Shown here: one piece after another, positions 1,666 to 10,577 of the stretch
Layout: every line of letters begins with the position of its first letter
How positions within the stretch are numbered: the first letter of the stretch is position 1
Assembly (NCBI GenBank): GCA_963169655.1
Contig: CAUJCM010000006.1
Location: forward strand, 1-50,188
Direction: 5' to 3'
Source of the DNA: Patescibacteria group bacterium
Lineage (GTDB): Bacteria; Patescibacteriota; Gracilibacteria; UBA1369
Length of the DNA stretch: 50,188 nt
The notes under the pieces: generated by a model
Databases searched by the model: none
What the model was told of the DNA's origin: nothing
What the model saw: the letters and a program-made list of their open reading frames with translations, nothing else
Program-made: the position numbers and the translations under genes

Positions 1666-2949
1666 TTACTGCTGTATCACATACTCCAAACTAGAATTAT
1701 CCACCGGCACTTTCACTTGTATGTTTTGACTAAAAGCTCCAGCCACTCCTTCTGCATTGATAATATTTTCTTTGGAAGCTGGTGGTGCTGTTGATGAAGC
1801 TCCATCTAAAATAATTTGATATTCTAAATAAGGTATATATTTAATTTCCCGATCTAGGTTATCACTGCTATCCGAACTATATTGGCATTCAATAGGATCT
1901 TCACAGCCAATTAAAGAAGAAATTATCGATAAAGTTAAAATAGGGTTTTTAAGAGTATTTTCATCAATAAAATTTTTTATTTCAATCTCTTGATTATTCA
2001 AATCTACTCCTTTTTGTTGATTATCAGTTTTCAGCATTTCAAAAGTATCAGAAGTATTATTTAAAGCACCATTTAACTTTCCTTCAAAAAAGCTTGTACT
2101 TGCAGGCATATATAAAAAACTTTGTATAAAATTATATGGATTCAACATTAATAAATCCCCATTATTTCCTTCTTCCATTTTAATTTGCCATAGCATAAAT
2201 ATTTCTCCTTTTTTATCAGCTTCCATTTCACCATCTTCACATTTTTCACCAAGAATTTTACTCCCCTTATCAAAACAATTTAACTGCATCCTGCTGTCTT
2301 TTCCCTCACAATACTCCTCCCCATCAGCACAAGGCGTACGAAGTTTTATTGTAAACTCACTTATTTTCTTTTGATTTCCGTCTTTATCAATTCCAAAAAG
2401 TGGAATACTTACTTTTTGTCCCACCTCAATCTTTCCCCAATTACAAGGATGGTCAATTGGTAGCATTTCTTTACTCATCCCTTGTCCACCTCCACCTCCA
2501 GGAATTGTAAAATCTGTAGGTGGCTTTTGTGGATTACATCCCCCAGTAATTGGATTTGAACCTTCACCATGCCAAGGCACATCTCCAGTCCATGGTAAAG
2601 GTTGAATATATTTTCCATCTATCTTAGCATCCACTAAATTGTCACTTGCCAAACCGCTAATTTTAAACTTTCCATTTAAACCTTCAAATTCACCTTCTGT
2701 ATTTGCACCTATTTCTTCTCCTTCATCTACCAATTTTTTATGCACCCAAAGTGCTTGTTCAAGACCAGCTTCTGCAAGATAATAAGCTGTTGTCCCTTGT
2801 TTAACATTTGAAGCTTCACGGCTAGAATCAACAACCATAGTTGTCACTCCCACGGAAAAAATCACAATCACACTAATTAAAATCACCGATAACATTACCG
2901 ATAGTCCAGGAAGTTCTTTTTTTGAATTCAATAAAAACTTTAATTTTTT
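1666..2949 (-). CDS. PilX-like type IV pilus-associated protein
   Basis: The N-terminus has a short basic stretch, then ELPGLSVML and a long hydrophobic helix (about residues 18-38), then AYYLAEAGLEQAL near residue 58. That AEAG motif after the helix is typical of PilX/GspK-like minor pilus proteins. The remaining 350 residues are polar, with Cys pairs and a glycine-rich segment, and are probably extracellular. I chose the ATG at 2949; a TTG at 2991 would add 14 residues. Neither has a Shine-Dalgarno sequence. It is divergent from comM with only about 120 bases between, and it matches the presence of pilB at 29.4 kb. The role as minor pilin or pilus assembly factor is inferred from the N-terminus only. 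Confidence 0.65.
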   Translation of the reverse strand, partial: KKLKFLLNSKKELPGLSVMLSVILISVIVIFSVGVTTMVVDSSREASNVKQGTTAYYLAEAGLEQALWVHKKLVDEGEEIGANTEGEFEGLNGKFKISGLASDNLVDAKIDGKYIQPLPWTGDVPWHGEGSNPITGGCNPQKPPTDFTIPGGGGGQGMSKEMLPIDHPCNWGKIEVGQKVSIPLFGIDKDGNQKKISEFTIKLRTPCADGEEYCEGKDSRMQLNCFDKGSKILGEKCEDGEMEADKKGEIFMLWQIKMEEGNNGDLLMLNPYNFIQSFLYMPASTSFFEGKLNGALNNTSDTFEMLKTDNQQKGVDLNNQEIEIKNFIDENTLKNPILTLSIISSLIGCEDPIECQYSSDSSDNLDREIKYIPYLEYQIILDGASSTAPPASKENIINAEGVAGAFSQNIQVKVPVDNSSLEYVIQQ

Positions 2950-3070
2950 CATTTTTTTGTTTTTCTTTATTTTACCATAAATTTCCCTCAATCAATATAA
3001 TAAAATTTAAATTTTTTTCATCTTCAGTTTAATTCCTTACTCAATAATTCAAGAAAGTTAAATAAAGATT

Positions 3071-4582
3071 ATGTCTGTAAAAGTAAATTCTTGTTTTATT
3101 GAAGGTATTCAAGGCCAACTTCTTGAAGTTGAGGCCGATATTTTATCAGGACTTTCAGCTTTTACTATTGTTGGCCTTGGCGACCAATCAGTTCAAGAAT
3201 CAAAAGAAAGAATTAGGTCAGCAATTCACAGTACAAATTCCCAGTATCCAACTCAAAAAAAAATTATCAATCTTGCACCAGCTTCTCAAAAAAAGCATGG
3301 TCCTTATTTTGATTTACCAATTGCTATCAGTTTGCTTTTTGCATCTAAACAAATACCAGATACATATCTTAAAAATTGCTTAATTATTGGTGAACTCGCA
3401 CTTAATGGCCAAATTCGTCCAATCAACAATGCCCTCTCTATCGCCATTTTTGCAAAAGAAAATAATTTAAAAACGCTTATTTTACCTTTTGAAAATTATC
3501 TGGAAGCACAACTTGTTTCAGATTTAGAAATTCTCCCTTTTTCACATTTACAAGAAGTTATCAACTACTTAAAAACTGGAGTAAAACCAAAAATTCCAAG
3601 CCTACCTCAAATTCAAAAATTAAATAACAATTTAAATTTTTATAATGCTATTCAAGGGCAAGAAGAAGCTAAAAGAGCTTTGCAAATTTCTGCATCAGGA
3701 GGACATCACCTTTTAATGTACGGATCCCCAGGAGTAGGAAAGACTATGTTAGCTAAAGCTTTACCTGAACTTTTACCTCCTCTAAATGAACAACAATTAT
3801 TTGAAGTTATTCGTATTCATTCATCAGCTGGGCAACCGCTTGAAGCACTTTTACAAGGTCAAAGACCTTTTCGAGAAGTACATCATTCAAGCACAAGAAG
3901 TAGTTTAATTGGCGGAAGCACTCCAATAAAACCTGGAGAAATCTCTCTCGCTCATCACGGTATTTTATTTCTCGATGAACTTCCGGAATTTCCAAGGAAT
4001 ATACTTGAATCTTTGAGACAACCACTTGAAAACAAGCAAATTCATATTTCCAGAGCAGGTCAACAACTTACTTTTCCATCTAATTTCACTTTAATTTCAG
4101 CAATGAATCCTTGTCCATGTGGTTATTTTGGAGATGAGAAAAAACAATGTCTTTGTACATCTAATCAAATTCAAAATTATCAACAAAAAATTTCAGGTCC
4201 AATTTTAGATCGTATTGATTTAATTCTTAATTTACCTCGTCAAAAACTTAATTTTCAAAAACAGGTCAAAACTACAACGAGTCAAAAAGATTTATTAGAA
4301 GTTATTAACAATGCCCGTAAAAGACAAGAAAAACGCTTCCAAAACACTAAAATCACTCAAAATGCAGATTTAAATTCAATTCAATTAGCCAGACTCATCA
4401 ATCTTGACTTTAAAGCTCAGGAATATTTACAAATTTTAATTGATAAAACCAATTTATCACCTCGCGCTCAAACTCAACTTTTAAAAGTAGCTTTAACGAT
4501 TGCAGACTTAAAAGATCAAGATCAAATTAGCAATATAGAATTAGCAGAAGCTTTTCAGTTTAAATCAACTCAATTTTTTTAG
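3071..4582 (+). CDS. comM: ComM/YifB family Mg-chelatase-like AAA+ ATPase
   Basis: The 503-residue protein has the full family layout. An N-terminal Lon-protease-like (ChlI) domain spans residues 1 to about 165. The AAA+ domain follows, with Walker A GSPGVGKT (218-225), Walker B GILFLDELPEF (about 297-307) and the family signature NPCPCGYFGD with further Cys residues. The C-terminal Mg-chelatase domain carries SPRAQTQLLKVA. Length is normal for the family (about 500). ComM of Vibrio and Haemophilus is a hexameric helicase that drives branch migration while transformed DNA is integrated. Here it fits with dprA, the ComEC-type hydrolase and the pilus genes in the same window. ATG start without a Shine-Dalgarno sequence. 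Confidence 0.92.
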   Translation: MSVKVNSCFIEGIQGQLLEVEADILSGLSAFTIVGLGDQSVQESKERIRSAIHSTNSQYPTQKKIINLAPASQKKHGPYFDLPIAISLLFASKQIPDTYLKNCLIIGELALNGQIRPINNALSIAIFAKENNLKTLILPFENYLEAQLVSDLEILPFSHLQEVINYLKTGVKPKIPSLPQIQKLNNNLNFYNAIQGQEEAKRALQISASGGHHLLMYGSPGVGKTMLAKALPELLPPLNEQQLFEVIRIHSSAGQPLEALLQGQRPFREVHHSSTRSSLIGGSTPIKPGEISLAHHGILFLDELPEFPRNILESLRQPLENKQIHISRAGQQLTFPSNFTLISAMNPCPCGYFGDEKKQCLCTSNQIQNYQQKISGPILDRIDLILNLPRQKLNFQKQVKTTTSQKDLLEVINNARKRQEKRFQNTKITQNADLNSIQLARLINLDFKAQEYLQILIDKTNLSPRAQTQLLKVALTIADLKDQDQISNIELAEAFQFKSTQFF

Positions 4583-4659
4583 AACTTTTTAGATGATTAA
4601 TAAGCTAATCCAGACACACTCTAAACAAATTAGCCACTTTAATTTTTATAATTTCCTAG

Positions 4660-4665
4660 TATAAT
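4660..4665 (+). promoter_or_regulatory. Possible -10 box of murA promoter
   Basis: A perfect TATAAT lies 70 bases before murA. The -35 region (about 4637-4642) matches the consensus poorly, so support rests on the -10 box and the position. Confidence 0.35.
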
Positions 4666-4735
4666 CTCGCCAAAGAACTTTTTAAAAAATATTTTTAAAA
4701 TTTCCAAAACAAATTCCATAATTCTTTCAAAATAA

Positions 4736-6007
4736 ATGTTTATCATTGAAGGTCAAAAAAAATTACAGGGACAAATTACTGTAAGCGGGTCTAAAAATGC
4801 AGTATTACCTATAATTTGTGCTTCACTTTTAACTAAAGAAAAAATCATTTTAAATAATGTCCCTCATATTAGCGATGTTGACACAATGTTAAAGATTATC
4901 CAGTCACTTGGTGTCAAAACACATTTTGAAAATCACCAAATAACTATTGAAGCAAGCGATTTACAGTTAAAATCTATTGATGACCATCTAGTTAACAAAA
5001 TGAGGGCATCAATTTTACTTTTTGGCCCTGTTTTAGCAAGGCTAGGAGAATTAGATTTAAGTTTTCCTGGAGGTTGTGTACTTGGAAAAAGGTCAATTCA
5101 TTCCCATACTTATGCAATGCAAAAGCTTGGTGCTGAAATAATTCAACAAGACACAAGAATCCATTTAAAAGTAAATAAACTACAATCCTCAAATGTAATA
5201 ATGCCTGAAATGTCTGTCACTGCTACTGAAAATGCCATTATGATGGCAGTTCTTGCACCAGGAATTACTGAACTTAAATTAGTTGCTTGTGAACCTCATA
5301 TTCAAGATTTATGCCATTTTTTAAATTCTATGGGGGCAAAAATTTCGGGAATTGGCACTCATTATCTAAAGATTGAAGGCGTTGAAACATTAAAAGGAAC
5401 AAATTATACAGTTACTGGTGATTACCTTGAAGCAGGTACATTCGCCATTGCGGGCTTAATTACTCAAGGAGAAATTGAAATTAATGGTATTCCTACTTGG
5501 CAATTAGATAGTTTTTGGCAAAAATTAGATGAAATGGGAGCTAATTATTTATTGGAAGAAAATCGAGTTATTATTAAAAAAACAGAATTATTTAAAGCTC
5601 CAACCCCACTTAAAACTTCAGTGTTTCCTGGTTTTGCCACTGATTTACAAGCCCCATTCTCAGTCTTATTAACTCAAGCTGAAGGAGAATCTCAAATTTT
5701 TGAAACATTATTTGAAGGTCGTTTAAATTATCTTTTTGAGCTCGAAAAAATGGGAGCAAAAATAGAAATTTTAAATCCACACCAAGCTAAAATTTTTGGA
5801 AAAAGAAATTTGAAAGGTGTTCCAATTGCTTCAATCGATATTCGAGCTGGATCAGCAATGGTTCTTGCAGGTCTAGTTGCTGAAGGAATTACTCATATCT
5901 CCAATACAAAATATATCGATCGTGGATATGAAAATATTGAAGGTAAATTAAATTCTCTTGGTGCGAATATCAAAAGAGTTGATGATGATGATTGCAGTAA
6001 GCATTAA
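4736..6007 (+). CDS. murA: UDP-N-acetylglucosamine 1-carboxyvinyltransferase MurA
   Basis: MurA transfers enolpyruvate from PEP to UDP-GlcNAc, the first committed step of peptidoglycan synthesis, in the cytoplasm. The 423-residue length is standard. The family marks are present: SGSKNAVLP near residue 20 (the UDP-GlcNAc/PEP-binding Lys-Asn) and FPGGCVLGKRSIHSH near residue 115, with the catalytic Cys that fosfomycin alkylates. GDYLEAGTF and RAGSAMVLAGL occur later. Cys rather than Asp at the active site predicts fosfomycin sensitivity at target level (inference). It converges on the isoaspartyl peptidase with only 6 bases between stops. No Shine-Dalgarno sequence. Confidence 0.95.
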   Translation: MFIIEGQKKLQGQITVSGSKNAVLPIICASLLTKEKIILNNVPHISDVDTMLKIIQSLGVKTHFENHQITIEASDLQLKSIDDHLVNKMRASILLFGPVLARLGELDLSFPGGCVLGKRSIHSHTYAMQKLGAEIIQQDTRIHLKVNKLQSSNVIMPEMSVTATENAIMMAVLAPGITELKLVACEPHIQDLCHFLNSMGAKISGIGTHYLKIEGVETLKGTNYTVTGDYLEAGTFAIAGLITQGEIEINGIPTWQLDSFWQKLDEMGANYLLEENRVIIKKTELFKAPTPLKTSVFPGFATDLQAPFSVLLTQAEGESQIFETLFEGRLNYLFELEKMGAKIEILNPHQAKIFGKRNLKGVPIASIDIRAGSAMVLAGLVAEGITHISNTKYIDRGYENIEGKLNSLGANIKRVDDDDCSKH

Positions 6008-6013
6008 AAAATT

Positions 6014-6940
6014 CTATTTAAAAAGTTTGCAGACAGGTTTTTTACCTTGCTTTACATAAGCTCGAATTAAGCCTTCGGTTGTAAGACCTTCTCCAATATT
6101 TCCTTTTCTATCAATCATTATAAATCCTCCGTATCCATTAACTCTTTCTTTAAAATATTGTGTAGCTTTTTTACTAGCTTTCTTTGCTTTATATCCTTTT
6201 AGTTCTACTAAATCAGCTATTCTCCTTGATAGAGCAGCTTTAATAAAATCTTCACCTCGTCCAGTACAGGAAACCCCAGCACTTTTATTATCTGCAAAAT
6301 TTCCACAACCAATTAAAGCACTATCACCAATCCTCCCAATCATTTTATTTGACATTCCACCTGTTGAAGTAGCAGCAGCTAGATCTCCATAAATATCGTA
6401 AGCAACAGCTCCAACAGTTCCTAATTTTGTATTTTTTTTATTGTCATCATGATCTAAAAGCACAATTCCCTCTTTTTTTACTTTTTTAAGTTGAGCAACT
6501 CTATGTGGCAAAATAAAATAAGAAGCTGGTTTTCTTTCTATTTTCTCTTTTCTAATAAATTTTTCAGCTCCTTCTCCAATCAAAAAAACATGACTAGTCT
6601 TTTCCATTATTCTTCTTGCAACTGTAATTGGATTTTTTGCACTTTTAACACCAGCCACAGCACCAGTATTCATAGTTTTTCCGCACATAATGCTTGCATC
6701 CATCTCCACTTCACCTTCCTCATTTAAAACTGAACCTTTTCCAGCATTAAAAATTGGGTCATCTTCCAATAACTTCACACATTTTTCTACCACATCTAAA
6801 GCCTTTTCTCCTTTTTGTAAAAATCTTTCTCCTCTTTTAATTACTTTTTCTAAACTCTTTAAAAAAGCTTTCTGCTCCTTCTCAGAAAACTGAGATAATG
6901 CACCACAACCACCATGAATTATTAATGCATATTTTTTCAT
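6014..6940 (-). CDS. Isoaspartyl peptidase/L-asparaginase (Ntn hydrolase, family T2)
   Basis: The enzyme hydrolyses isoaspartyl-peptide or beta-aspartyl amide bonds; family members also act as L-asparaginase. Visible marks are the N-terminal IIHGGCGAL, the NAGKGSVL and EMDASIMCG region, then LGTVGAVAYD with the nucleophile Thr175, and STGGMSNKMIGRIGDSALIGCG and TGRGED for substrate binding. The 308 residues match the family (about 300-320). By family rule the precursor cleaves itself between Gly174 and Thr175 into alpha and beta subunits. It is the last gene of a four-gene minus-strand operon, 7 bases after the amidotransferase. That suggests it acts on an amide or isopeptide made by the upstream ligases (inference). 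No signal peptide seen, so cytoplasmic. Confidence 0.88.
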   Translation of the reverse strand: MKKYALIIHGGCGALSQFSEKEQKAFLKSLEKVIKRGERFLQKGEKALDVVEKCVKLLEDDPIFNAGKGSVLNEEGEVEMDASIMCGKTMNTGAVAGVKSAKNPITVARRIMEKTSHVFLIGEGAEKFIRKEKIERKPASYFILPHRVAQLKKVKKEGIVLLDHDDNKKNTKLGTVGAVAYDIYGDLAAATSTGGMSNKMIGRIGDSALIGCGNFADNKSAGVSCTGRGEDFIKAALSRRIADLVELKGYKAKKASKKATQYFKERVNGYGGFIMIDRKGNIGEGLTTEGLIRAYVKQGKKPVCKLFK

Positions 6941-6947
6941 ACTTAAT

Positions 6948-7661
6948 TTATATACTTTCCAAAAAGTTTTGTAAAATTTGATGTGCTTGATTTCCCAAAT
7001 AAATTTCAGACATTAATTTTTCAAAATGCTCTTCATCGCGTAAAAACCCACTTTCTAAATATTTTTCTTTCCTCTCTCGTAAAAGTTTTTCAGCTACGCT
7101 TTGCGGAATATCCGAATGAAATTGAGTAGCCAAAACATTTTTATATTGAAAAGCTTGTATCGGTGTATTTTCATTAAAAGCGAGTAGAGTAGCACCATCT
7201 GGGAGGCTTTCTATATAGTCATTATGGGTAGCAAAAACATATTTCTGATTATTGTATTCAGCAATTAAAGGATTTTGAAGTCCTTGATCAGTTAAATGAA
7301 TTTTGACAGGACCAAATTCTGTACCTTTTGGATTTCTGCTTATTTTTGAGCCCAAATGATATGCTAAAAATTGAGCCCCAAAGCAAGTAGCTAATATTGG
7401 AGTCTCTTTTTGTAAAAAATAATCAAAAGTCTGATGTAATTTATTTTTCCAATCAAAATCATCATAAACGGATCTCATAGAACCAGAAATAAGTACTGAA
7501 TCAAATTTATTAAGTGAGTTTTGATTTATATCTTCAGTTGCTGGATGAAAAATCTCAAAATTAAAATCTTGATACTCTTCACCTAAAATTTCTTGAATAT
7601 GCTTTTCTTGTCTAGTAGTTCTATCATCAGTAATTACATCGATTATTAAAATATTTTTCAT
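6948..7661 (-). CDS. Class I glutamine amidotransferase domain protein
   Basis: A stand-alone triad-type glutaminase domain of 237 residues, resembling GuaA-like amidotransferases. The nucleophile is Cys93 in ATCFGAQFLA; the catalytic His182 lies in ATQFHSDI. The usual Glu after the His (HPE) is Asp184 here, which may be a conservative change or may reflect altered activity. Such domains release ammonia from glutamine or cleave gamma-glutamyl bonds. Its start overlaps the stop of the upstream ligase by four bases (ATGA), so the two are probably translationally coupled. No synthetase domain is attached; the partner is likely one of the two adjacent ligases. The substrate cannot be read from the sequence. 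Confidence 0.8.
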   Translation of the reverse strand: MKNILIIDVITDDRTTRQEKHIQEILGEEYQDFNFEIFHPATEDINQNSLNKFDSVLISGSMRSVYDDFDWKNKLHQTFDYFLQKETPILATCFGAQFLAYHLGSKISRNPKGTEFGPVKIHLTDQGLQNPLIAEYNNQKYVFATHNDYIESLPDGATLLAFNENTPIQAFQYKNVLATQFHSDIPQSVAEKLLRERKEKYLESGFLRDEEHFEKLMSEIYLGNQAHQILQNFLESI

Positions 7662-8554
7662 ATATTTAATTGTTTTAATAATTGATTATTTGACTCAATA
7701 ATAGCATATATTTCTTTTTCTGTATCAACTGCATCAAAAACCCGACTTTCACAAATCCAAATATCATTATTTCTCTTAATTTTTACAGTCAAAGCATGTT
7801 CATTTTTACATTGAGCATCCTCAAAATTATCTACATCTGAATGAGCTTTCATCCAATTTTTCATTTCTTCAATATTTTTAAATTCACTAGGTAAAATTGC
7901 TTCTAAAGGATTTTTTATACCTCTTTTTAAAAATAAATCTCTTTTTACTTCTTGAAGTAACCTCATCGCTTTTTCAATTCTACTTTCACCTTCAAAGTCT
8001 CTTATTTTACCATTAAATTTATTTAGTTGATCAAAATTTCTTGAGTATAAATTATGAATTTGAAAAGCTAATTCAAGTTTTTCATCTAAATTATCAGTAT
8101 TTTGAAAAGGACGAGAGTCATTGATTTGTAATGAAGCAGTTACAGTATCTTTTAAGAGTTTACGACCTTTTTCAGTATTTCCCCATTTTTGAATTAATTC
8201 TTGAGAACGAGAATTAGGATCTGAAGTTGCAGGCACAAAGTCAAAATCCTTTTCTAAAACTGGTTGGAAAACTAATTCACAACCTTTTTCTTTTAAAATT
8301 TTATTAATCTCCTCTCGAATATTTAAAATTTGTGTGACAGCTTCCCCGTCTTTTTCAAAAACATCAGATTTTACTTCAAGCATCACTGAAGCTTGTTCAA
8401 AAGATAAATAAGGATATAAATTAGGTATTTTTTCCTCAACTTGTTTTAAGGTCCATTCACTTGCTGGCAAGCCATCAATTATTTCTTTTCCATAACCATT
8501 TTCTTTAATAAACCCCTCTATTTCTAGTCCAATTCCAAAATTTTCTTTTTTCAT
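7658..8554 (-). CDS. GCS2-type carboxylate-amine ligase-like protein, copy B
   Basis: A 298-residue protein with the marks of the glutamine-synthetase-fold ligases (GCS2/YbdK and the bacterial amidoligases). These are FGIGLEIEGFI at the start, ASVMLEVKSDV near residue 57 (compare ESMLELATDV in YbdK), TASLQINDSRPF in the middle and WICESRVFDA near the end (compare VEVRVMDTP). Such enzymes join a carboxylate to an amine using ATP. The protein is about 65% identical by eye to its upstream neighbour, so the pair is a tandem duplication. It lies 3 bases after copy A and overlaps the amidotransferase by 4 bases. Family assignment is by motif only; the substrate is unknown. Confidence 0.6.
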   Translation of the reverse strand: MKKENFGIGLEIEGFIKENGYGKEIIDGLPASEWTLKQVEEKIPNLYPYLSFEQASVMLEVKSDVFEKDGEAVTQILNIREEINKILKEKGCELVFQPVLEKDFDFVPATSDPNSRSQELIQKWGNTEKGRKLLKDTVTASLQINDSRPFQNTDNLDEKLELAFQIHNLYSRNFDQLNKFNGKIRDFEGESRIEKAMRLLQEVKRDLFLKRGIKNPLEAILPSEFKNIEEMKNWMKAHSDVDNFEDAQCKNEHALTVKIKRNNDIWICESRVFDAVDTEKEIYAIIESNNQLLKQLNI

Positions 8555-8557
8555 AAA

Positions 8558-9448
8558 TTAAATTTTACTTAATAAATCATTATTTTTTTTAATAATTTCT
8601 TCAATTTCACTTTCTGTATTAACTGCATCAAAAAGCCTACTTTCACAAATCCAAATTGCTTGATCTCTTTTAATTTTTACAGTTAAAGCATGTTCATTTT
8701 TACAATTTGTATCTTCAAAATTATCTACATCTGAATGAGCTTTCATCCAGTTTTTCATTTCTTCAATATCTGTAAATTCTCCTGGAAGTAAAGCTTTGAG
8801 TGGATCATTAATTCCATATTTAGCAAAAACTTCTTTTTTAACTTCTACCAATAAATTTGTAATTTTTTCAATTCTAGTTTTACCATCAAAGTCTTTTATT
8901 TTCCCATTAAATTTATTTAACTCTTCAAAATATTTTGAGTATAAATTATGAATTTTAAATGCTAGTTCAAGTTTTTTATCTAAACTATTAGCATTTTGGA
9001 AAGGTCGAGAGTCATTGATTTGTAAAGATGCTATTACAGTATCTTTTAATAACTTTTTACCTTTCTCAGTATTTCCCCATTCTTCAATTAATTGATAAAC
9101 ACGAGAGTCTTTATTTGAAGTAGCCGGAATAAAGTCAAAATCTCTTTCTAAAACTGGCTGAAACATTAATTCACAACCCTTTCTATTTAGAATTTTATTA
9201 ATATCATTTCTAATCTCTAAGATTTGAGCGATAGCTTCTCTTTCATTTTCAAAAACATCTGATTTCACTTCCAGCATTACTGACGCTTGTTCAAAAGAAA
9301 TATATTGCTCTAGATTTAACTTCTCATTAAGAATTTTTCTTAAAATCCATTCACTTGAAGGTATATCTTCAATTAATTCTTTAGCTGAACCTTCTTTCAT
9401 TATAAATCCTTCCATTTCAATCCCCATTCCATATTTTTCTGTATTCAT
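8558..9448 (-). CDS. GCS2-type carboxylate-amine ligase-like protein, copy A
   Basis: First structural gene of the four-gene operon, 296 residues, paralogous to the next gene over its whole length. It keeps the same key segments: YGMGIEMEGFI, ASVMLEVKSDV, IASLQINDSRPF, NEHALTVKIKR and WICESRLFDA. Glu residues in the first two segments are likely metal or ATP ligands, as in GCS2 and glutamine synthetase (inference). Two diverged copies could form a heteromer or have different substrates. The start is ATG without a Shine-Dalgarno sequence, only 12 bases after the U-tract of a terminator-like hairpin (9460-9497), so every transcript starting upstream must pass that hairpin. Confidence 0.6.
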   Translation of the reverse strand: MNTEKYGMGIEMEGFIMKEGSAKELIEDIPSSEWILRKILNEKLNLEQYISFEQASVMLEVKSDVFENEREAIAQILEIRNDINKILNRKGCELMFQPVLERDFDFIPATSNKDSRVYQLIEEWGNTEKGKKLLKDTVIASLQINDSRPFQNANSLDKKLELAFKIHNLYSKYFEELNKFNGKIKDFDGKTRIEKITNLLVEVKKEVFAKYGINDPLKALLPGEFTDIEEMKNWMKAHSDVDNFEDTNCKNEHALTVKIKRDQAIWICESRLFDAVNTESEIEEIIKKNNDLLSKI

Positions 9449-9459
9449 AAATTTCTTTT

Positions 9460-9497
9460 AAAAAATAAAATGACCTCAATCCGTTTGGGTTGAGGTC
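9460..9497 (-). terminator. Intrinsic terminator or attenuator before the ligase operon
   Basis: On the minus strand an 11-pair stem (GACCTCAACCC with GGATTGAGGTC, one G-U pair) with a 4-base loop is followed by ATTTTATTTTTT. It ends 12 bases before the start codon at 9448. It can end transcripts of the ComEC-type gene, but it also lies in the leader of the ligase operon. GGTTGAG of an upstream segment (plus-strand 9523-9529) can pair with CTCAACC of the stem (9488-9494) and would then prevent it forming. Confidence 0.75.
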
Positions 9498-9519
9498 TTA
9501 AATTACATAAACTCAAGAA

Positions 9520-9588
9520 TTACTCAACCATCTGCTTAAAAAAGTAGAAGTAAAATTGAGCAATTTTTTGAATATTTGAATTTTGCAT
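9520..9588 (-). CDS. Putative aromatic leader peptide of an attenuator
   Basis: A 22-codon open frame (ATG at 9588, TAA at 9520-9522) contains the run QFYFYFF at residues 11-17, that is six consecutive Phe/Tyr codons. Its last two sense codons and stop overlap the segment that can pair with the terminator stem. This is the classical layout of pheA, pheST or trp leader peptides. A ribosome stalled on the aromatic codons would leave that segment free to form an antiterminator; a ribosome reaching the stop would cover it and let the terminator form. No Shine-Dalgarno sequence is seen. Chance aromatic codons are possible in AT-rich DNA, so this is a structural prediction. Confidence 0.45.
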   Translation of the reverse strand: MQNSNIQKIAQFYFYFFKQMVE

Positions 9589-9594
9589 ATTTAG

Positions 9595-9623
9595 AATTTA
9601 AATGGTTTTTATTTTTTTGTAAA
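9595..9623 (-). promoter_or_regulatory. Possible promoter of the leader peptide and ligase operon
   Basis: TTTACA (9618-9623 on the minus strand), a 17-base spacer and TAAATT (9595-9600). Transcription would begin at about 9588, making the leader peptide nearly leaderless. The -10 box is a weak match; read-through from the upstream hydrolase gene is the alternative. Confidence 0.3.
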
Positions 9624-9637
9624 GAGGTCTGATTAAA

Positions 9638-10492
9638 TTATCTTGATGGTTTAAAAGCAATTTCATCTTTACTACTTAATTGCACTTCAATATTTCCTTG
9701 TAAATCAGTTCTAAATACCTTTTGAGAAATAGATTGTAAATGTTTCAAAGTTTCAGGATTTGGGTGATTAAATTTATTATTTACTCCGCAAGAAATTATC
9801 ACCCAATCAGGTCGAATTTTTTCTAAAATAAAAAGATTATTACTCGTTTTAGAACCATGATGACCAGCTTTTAAAATATCACTATTTAAGTGTAATTTTT
9901 GACTAATCAATAATTCTTCTTTTTCTTTTTCCAAGTCTCCACTAAAGAAAGCTTTAAAATCATTAAAAATTAACCTAAAAGCAATAGAACTATTATTTAC
10001 ATTAGCAAAATATTTCCCATTAATATTTTCATTTGGATATAAAATATCAATTGCTACTTTACCAAACTTATAATCTTTTTGCCCATCGACATAAATTAAA
10101 TTAACATTTTTATCTAGTGCTAATTCTATTAATTGGTCATATCCCAAATAATTATACTTAACACCTGTTAACATTAGATTTTTAACTTCATATCTTTTTA
10201 AAACTTCAATCAGTCCATTAAGATGATCAGCGTGAGGATGACTCATAATCACTAAATCAATTTTTTTATTGTAAAAAGGGATTTTCTGGCTTAAAAAATT
10301 AATAATTTTATTATCTGGACCGCCATCATTTAAAATAAATTCACCAGTTGGCAATTGCATTAGTATACCGTCTCCTTGACCTACATCCACGAAATAAAGA
10401 TGCAATTTCCCATCAGGTAAAAAGCTAATTCCCCAAAGGCTTAAGATTATTAGAAATATTAGAAGTAATAAAAAATAATATCTTTTTTTCAT
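9638..10492 (-). CDS. ComEC/Rec2-type metallo-beta-lactamase-fold hydrolase
   Basis: A membrane anchor or signal segment (residues about 4-24, FLLLLIFLIILSLWGISF) precedes a metallo-beta-lactamase domain. This starts LHLYFVDVGQGDGILMQLP, the family signature of the ComEC C-terminal domain, and has SHPHADH at residues 84-90 with the metal-binding His85, His87, Asp89 and His90. Later metal ligands lie in FFSGDLEKE and AGHHGSKTS. It is the stand-alone form without the competence channel domain. In full-length ComEC this domain is thought to degrade one strand during DNA uptake; a secreted or membrane-bound nuclease is plausible. The ATG at 10492 is preferred to TTG at 10495. It is followed by the hairpin at 9460-9497. 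Confidence 0.8.
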   Translation of the reverse strand: MKKRYYFLLLLIFLIILSLWGISFLPDGKLHLYFVDVGQGDGILMQLPTGEFILNDGGPDNKIINFLSQKIPFYNKKIDLVIMSHPHADHLNGLIEVLKRYEVKNLMLTGVKYNYLGYDQLIELALDKNVNLIYVDGQKDYKFGKVAIDILYPNENINGKYFANVNNSSIAFRLIFNDFKAFFSGDLEKEKEELLISQKLHLNSDILKAGHHGSKTSNNLFILEKIRPDWVIISCGVNNKFNHPNPETLKHLQSISQKVFRTDLQGNIEVQLSSKDEIAFKPSR

Positions 10493-10577
10493 CAAAGTTT
10501 TTTATATAAAGATATTTTAGTCTGCTATTTTTAAATCATTGTGAAAAATAGATTAAATTATTTTTATAATGCCTATT

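Follow-up and report, generated by a model that had tools for sequence, protein, structure and literature searches.

The window, the whole 50,188-nucleotide stretch of DNA that was analyzed, is one contig (C6) of a six-contig genome of 1.02 Mb (completeness 98.7%). Among the relatives of this genome, those that have named records are Candidatus Peregrinibacteria and Abawacabacteria, a kinship that would place it in the candidate phyla radiation. A tight run of four genes lies on the reverse strand of the window (9448-6014). The first encodes ligase A, a homolog of carboxylate-amine ligases of the GCS/YbdK fold (8558..9448, ATG at 9448), and is followed by its paralog ligase B (67% identity; 7658..8554), a hydrolase resembling class-I glutamine amidotransferases (GATase; 6948..7661, overlapping ligase B by 4 nt) and, as the final gene of the operon, a protein of the Asparaginase_2 / isoaspartyl peptidase family (6014..6940). 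Directly before the operon, at 9588-9449 on the same strand, is an attenuator-like leader, and upstream of the leader is a co-directional metallo-hydrolase gene (9638-10495), which ends 140 nt before the leader hairpin.

The first-pass annotation had proposed an attenuator here, built on a 22-codon frame with six consecutive aromatic codons, an alternative pairing of GGTTGAG with CTCAACC, and a terminator hairpin with a U-tract just before the first ligase gene; each of these elements was located (all on the reverse strand). The frame, MQNSNIQKIAQFYFYFFKQMVE, spans 9520..9588 (ATG at 9588, stop TAA at 9522-9520), with the control codons TTT TAC TTC TAC TTT TTT (Phe Tyr Phe Tyr Phe Phe) at 9538..9555, and is backed by the shuffling tests and by the counterparts in three other genomes described below. 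The terminator hairpin, GACCTCAACCCAAACGGATTGAGGTC (9497-9472, -13.4 kcal/mol), consists of region 3 as its 5' arm (GACCTCAACCC, 9487..9497) and region 4 as its 3' arm (GGATTGAGGTC, 9472..9482), and runs into a U-tract, ATTTTATTTTTT (9460..9471), 11 nt upstream of the ligase A ATG. Region 2 (GGTTGAGTAATT, 9518..9529) contains the leader stop codon, and forms the antiterminator with region 3 through GGTTGAG (9529-9523) and CTCAACC (9494-9488).

The minimum-free-energy fold also contained a pairing that was absent from the first-pass annotation, between region 1 (AATTGCTCAAT, 9565-9555) and GTTGAGTAATT (9528-9518) in region 2. This helix brackets the Phe/Tyr codons; region 1 ends on the first Phe codon and its partner includes the leader stop codon, and without a ribosome the helix leaves region 3 free. 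Found beside 2:3 and 3:4, the 1:2 pairing gives the window leader three alternative pairings. The whole leader fold had a z of -4.88, with 0/200 shuffles as good. Rfam covariance models at gathering score found nothing but five tRNAs in the window, and the leader matched no family or riboswitch. A weak candidate promoter, TTTACA-17-TAAATT (9595..9623, reverse strand), lies 6 nt upstream of the leader ATG. An ATG 6-8 nt past a -10-like hexamer in three loci hinted at a leaderless leader mRNA, an idea that was dropped because the best promoter match was equalled by 88 (window), 381 and 40 of 500 shuffles at the three loci.

The ligase is rare across the genome sets searched: with the window genome included each time, it was found in 3/99 genomes, 3/89 in the order, 5/353 in the class and 1/379 sampled from the phylum. 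A single-protein scan of the genome contigs found no relative, and an alignment-based scan gave four loci. Loci covering the same place were counted once (L002, L007, L012, L021, L066 and L072; L008, L015, L017, L073 and L075; L003, L006, L009, L013 and L019; L005, L010, L014 and L020). Identity to the window ligase was 51% for the UBA1369 genome, 34 and 37% for two paralogs in SI047_bin117, 39% for Abawacabacteria RBG_16_42_10 and 23% for a distant homolog in genome G181. The leader-bearing homologous ligases are therefore 34-51% identical, and bring four further leaders in three related genomes: MNKHGSQNFGFFFFAYFKHRVEA in the UBA1369 genome (Phe/Tyr codons), MKQTFFFNTEFFFFAAKRG and MNLFSAAYQYYSYLM before the two SI047_bin117 paralogs (Phe and Tyr on separate paralogs) and MRAQDFFIIHWWCKLHIWKGHFCW in Abawacabacteria RBG_16_42_10 (Trp codons). 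Only these and the window genome, four in all, carried the element among the sets searched.

All five leaders have a cluster of aromatic codons in a short ORF (F/Y in the window, then F/Y, F, Y and W; translation of the ORFs is predicted), and all five have an intrinsic terminator between leader and ligase (-8.8 to -22.6 kcal/mol, with U-tracts), 20-31 nt past the leader stop codon and ending 19-46 nt short of the ligase. The test that the first-pass annotation had set itself, that the leader be kept in relatives while the sequence drifts, was thus passed in 5/5 leaders from four genomes, each with the aromatic ORF, the alternative pairing and the terminator. The upstream neighbor is co-directional in the window and the UBA1369 genome, and divergent in 3/5 loci (both SI047_bin117 loci and Abawacabacteria).

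In G181, where TGA is read as Gly, the distant homolog lacks such a leader. Directly before this gene (locus L018, contig C33 of G181) is a TrpR-like ORF (4153-4422), which scored 42.6 bits against the TrpR-related YerC/YecD model (cut-off 42.2) and 52.6 against TrpR, under the cut-off of 67.25; after it lies a gene resembling succinylglutamate desuccinylase/aspartoacylase (5468-6346). We also checked other GCS2 loci of the class, at 30 loci (L037-L066; 8 further matches of the same search were left out), and found the leader at 1/30, the UBA1369 one, the 29 others being without an aromatic leader. At one locus (L039, G044:C23), about 130 nt upstream of an ordinary GCS2 gene, there is a short frame, MNYSEYFFGLVFEGARY, with an imperfect hairpin and seven T; it might be a Tyr/Phe leader, though its hairpin overlaps the stop codon.

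The chance of finding such aromatic runs was assessed with 1500 dinucleotide shuffles of the stretch before each hairpin, allowing all three start codons. Six aromatic codons in seven, within an ORF near the hairpin as in the window, arose in 2/1500 shuffles. With the residue set fitted to each leader (F/Y/W for the window and UBA1369, F and Y for the respective SI047_bin117 leaders, W for Abawacabacteria), runs at least as strong as observed came up in 2, 3, 1, 5 and 17 of 1500 shuffles (window, UBA1369, SI047 Phe, SI047 Tyr and Abawacabacteria); scored instead with the F/Y/W set in seven codons, the last three gave 71, 54 and 234 of 1500. A relaxed terminator scan was then run over the window and 20 loci (L017-L036; 341,020 strand-bases in all), the loci being the surroundings of ligase genes, pheS, tyrS/trpS and the prephenate dehydratase gene of G181. 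It returned 63 terminator-like hairpins, 16 of them with a gene start no more than 80 nt away. At least four aromatics in eight codons were present at exactly 5/16 of these terminator-plus-gene sites, which were the five ligase leaders; of the remaining 11, seven had an ORF of 0 to 2 aromatics and four had no ORF, and the scanned loci of pheS, tyrS and trpS were without a leader of this kind. A stricter first scan is not counted, as its U-tract rule lost the window and Tyr leaders.

To follow the switch with ribosome position, we folded transcripts that end before arm 4 and from which bases to 13 nt past the A-site start were removed as masked by the ribosome. In 5/5 leaders the switch adjoined the control codons. 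With the ribosome on these codons the mean probability of the antiterminator, P(2:3), was 0.77 for the window, 0.84 for UBA1369, 0.82 for the Phe paralog, 0.76 for the Tyr paralog and 0.97 for the Trp leader (leaving the last two of its four Trp codons out of the count), and it dropped within about one to three codons of the counted run in the five leaders. For the window, P(2:3) was 0.80 on each of the first five control codons (F, Y, F, Y, F) and 0.64 on the sixth; on the Lys one codon past the run it was 0.21, and at the stop 0.01 (0.20 without a ribosome). UBA1369 held 0.89 up to its Tyr codon, then 0.53 on the last Phe and 0.03 two codons on; the SI047_bin117 Phe leader gave 0.90 and 0.84, then 0.43 on its last Phe and 0.16 on Ala, and the Tyr leader went from 0.96 on the third Tyr to 0.07 on the fourth. 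In Abawacabacteria P(2:3) was 0.97 on the tandem Trp codons and the following Cys, and 0.50 three codons past the second Trp, with two later Trp codons falling past the switch (0.40 and 0.49). The same folding of Escherichia coli controls gave 0.81 (pheL), 0.62 (trpL) and 0.69 (pheM) when stalled, and 0.10, 0.01 and 0.04 at the stop.

These values were compared with 300 shuffles per leader of the segment from the control codons to the hairpin. The contrast between stalled and stop positions was matched by 1, 2, 0, 32 and 34 of 300 shuffles (window, UBA1369, SI047 Phe, SI047 Tyr and Abawacabacteria). P(2:3) given a stalled ribosome was by itself moderately unusual, matched by 12, 12, 7, 33 and 1 of 300 in the same order, statistically weakest for the Tyr leader (33/300).

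In full-length equilibrium folding the switch was visible in the SI047_bin117 and Abawacabacteria leaders, but in the window and UBA1369 leaders the terminator won even when the ribosome occupied the control codons, so that in these two the switch must be kinetic. Such a reading is reasonable, because E. coli trpL and pheM likewise did not clearly show the switch at full-length equilibrium. Equilibrium folding therefore gave way to the folding of transcripts still lacking arm 4, as above. In these models the antiterminator is predicted to be exclusive with the terminator, with the choice set by the position of the ribosome at the control codons.

Computation thus showed how the leader is built, that relatives have counterparts of it and where the switch lies, and the window leader is very probably a ribosome-mediated transcription attenuator, responding to Phe/Tyr, upstream of the ligase operon. 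For transcription, ribosome stalling and read-through we infer the following course. RNA polymerase would start upstream of the leader ORF. With ample charged tRNA-Phe and tRNA-Tyr the ribosome would run on to region 2 and the stop codon there, leaving region 3 to pair with region 4, and transcription would end at the U-tract. If either tRNA were uncharged, the ribosome would stall on the FYFYFF codons, covering region 1, and region 2 would take region 3 before region 4 is made, giving read-through into the operon. Without translation 1:2 would form, making termination the default. By this mechanism Phe/Tyr shortage probably switches the operon on, in a cell with no recognizable chorismate synthase or prephenate dehydratase (see below).

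Three other explanations of the element were weighed. The leader could be translated and set read-through, with general translation speed or nascent-peptide arrest, not tRNA charging, as the signal. Arrest peptides such as tnaC and ermC can use the same RNA layout, and stalling by uncharged tRNA and peptide arrest look alike in our folding. However, the aromatic class is kept between the leaders and the flanking residues mostly are not, a pattern more in keeping with codon counting than with a specific arrest motif, and two paralogs of one genome (SI047_bin117) carry a Phe-only and a Tyr-rich leader; we therefore regard this explanation as very unlikely. We give slightly less credence still to the idea that the hairpin does no more than end transcription of the upstream metallo-hydrolase gene, as an intrinsic terminator, and that the ORF arose by chance in T-rich sequence. 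The co-directional upstream genes of the window and UBA1369 would suit it, but leader and hairpin are present at both SI047_bin117 loci and in Abawacabacteria despite a divergent upstream gene, so that in three loci the hairpin cannot be that gene's terminator, and the aromatic run is rare in shuffles and absent at the 11 other terminator-plus-gene sites. The first-pass annotation had itself named a hairpin that merely marks the 3' end of the hydrolase mRNA as what would overturn its proposal, and this fails at the divergent loci. Least probable of all is sensing of an aromatic metabolite by a riboswitch or a protein-bound RNA, with the ORF incidental: without a ribosome region 2 captures region 3 in 4/5 leaders, as such a switch would (0.89-0.99, against 0.20 in the window, the only leader with a clearly predicted 1:2 helix), but no Rfam family matched at gathering scores, no conserved aptamer-like primary sequence was obvious by eye over the five leaders, and the antiterminator is lost near the end of the aromatic codon runs.

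The predicted structure of ligase A (pLDDT 89.9, good confidence) matched YbdK (1r8g) with a Foldseek E of 4.9e-6, and aligned with plant GCL (2gwc), NP459575 (1tt4) and YbdK over 231-251 residues (VIA Z 17.5-18.8, rmsd 2.9-3.2) at 11-12% identity; on this model ligase A has the GCS2 / YbdK carboxylate-amine ligase fold. Its sequence falls under the cut-offs of Pfam PF04107 (GCS2; 17.5 vs 21 bits) and TIGR02050 (18.9 vs 176.4 bits), the UBA1369 homolog passes PF04107 (23.8 bits), and a sequence profile search of solved structures gave a chance match only. In three of the genomes (window, UBA1369 and Abawacabacteria) the ligase is followed by a GATase-like gene, but both SI047_bin117 ligases stand alone.

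A family search of the window genome (98.7% complete) found no prephenate dehydratase and no chorismate synthase, with 14/14 control genomes positive for both, and the window host is presumably an aromatic auxotroph. Of the five genomes, only G181 gave a prephenate dehydratase match, and only SI047_bin117 a chorismate synthase match. The latter genome has a compact shikimate operon (L080, G052:C1:125000-140000, at 2539-8204 on the reverse strand) with a short chorismate-mutase-like ORF last; apart from chorismate synthase its genes are presumed identities, assigned by reading the ORFs. Prephenate dehydratase was not found in this genome, and no leader with terminator was found upstream of the operon. 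The window genome also has three class-Ib tRNA synthetase matches (C4:14677-15531, C1:260868-261695 and C3:103892-104755; frames of 401, 331 and 405 aa), one above the two expected (TyrS and TrpS).

Leader codons tell what is sensed, not which product is made. Their variation among F, Y and W nonetheless suggests the substrates of the ligases, and the link between ligase product and aromatic amino acids drawn in the first-pass annotation is strengthened by the Phe-only, Tyr-rich and Trp leaders, while the link itself stays conjectural. Pairs of a ligase and a GATase-type hydrolase that add and remove a gamma-glutamyl group exist, for example PuuA/PuuD, and by analogy the operon may process aromatic amino acid conjugates, the ligase/hydrolase pair most likely acting on aromatic amino acids, their amides or isopeptides. 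More tentatively, and as a possibility that we would not call probable, the small GCS-fold ligases of Peregrinibacteria and relatives may be aromatic-specialized, with the leader codons naming each enzyme's substrate, and, with the GATase or isopeptidase partners, give auxotrophs a starvation-induced way to capture aromatic amino acids from conjugates or to release them. If true, this would span the separate Phe and Tyr paralogs in one genome, the tandem pair under a mixed leader in the window, the Trp version in Abawacabacteria and the TrpR-like regulator beside the G181 distant homolog.

Descriptions of classical attenuation come mostly from Proteobacteria and Actinobacteria, where it governs genes for biosynthesis and for tRNA synthetases. 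E. coli pheL-pheA and pheM-pheST share with the window a short Phe/Tyr-rich leader ORF, antiterminator/terminator alternatives, a U-tract and the masked-ribosome profile, but control biosynthesis or tRNA synthetase genes, whereas the window target is a GCS-like ligase operon in a presumed aromatic auxotroph. YbdK and other GCS2 ligases match the fold of ligase A, but at the low identity and sub-threshold Pfam score given above. The trp attenuators of Actinobacteria, in the classical layout described in PMC1262725, have tandem Trp codons before a 2:3/3:4 switch, as do E. coli trpL and the Abawacabacteria leader; the Abawacabacteria leader differs in gene and phylum, with no trp gene downstream. 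In the titles, abstract openings and passages of the open-access literature, nothing relevant was found on attenuation or leader peptides in the Candidate Phyla Radiation, Peregrinibacteria or Patescibacteria, one leader-peptide match for candidate phyla concerning bacteriocin processing.

The mechanism is thus classical; the novelty lies in the host lineage and in the target, a ligase family with an unassigned reaction. Such switches are little known in this phylum, and attenuation in streamlined candidate-phylum bacteria would mean that some reduced genomes at least retain amino-acid-specific gene control. Control codons that differ by paralog and species give a direct, testable hint of enzyme substrates in organisms that are hard to grow.
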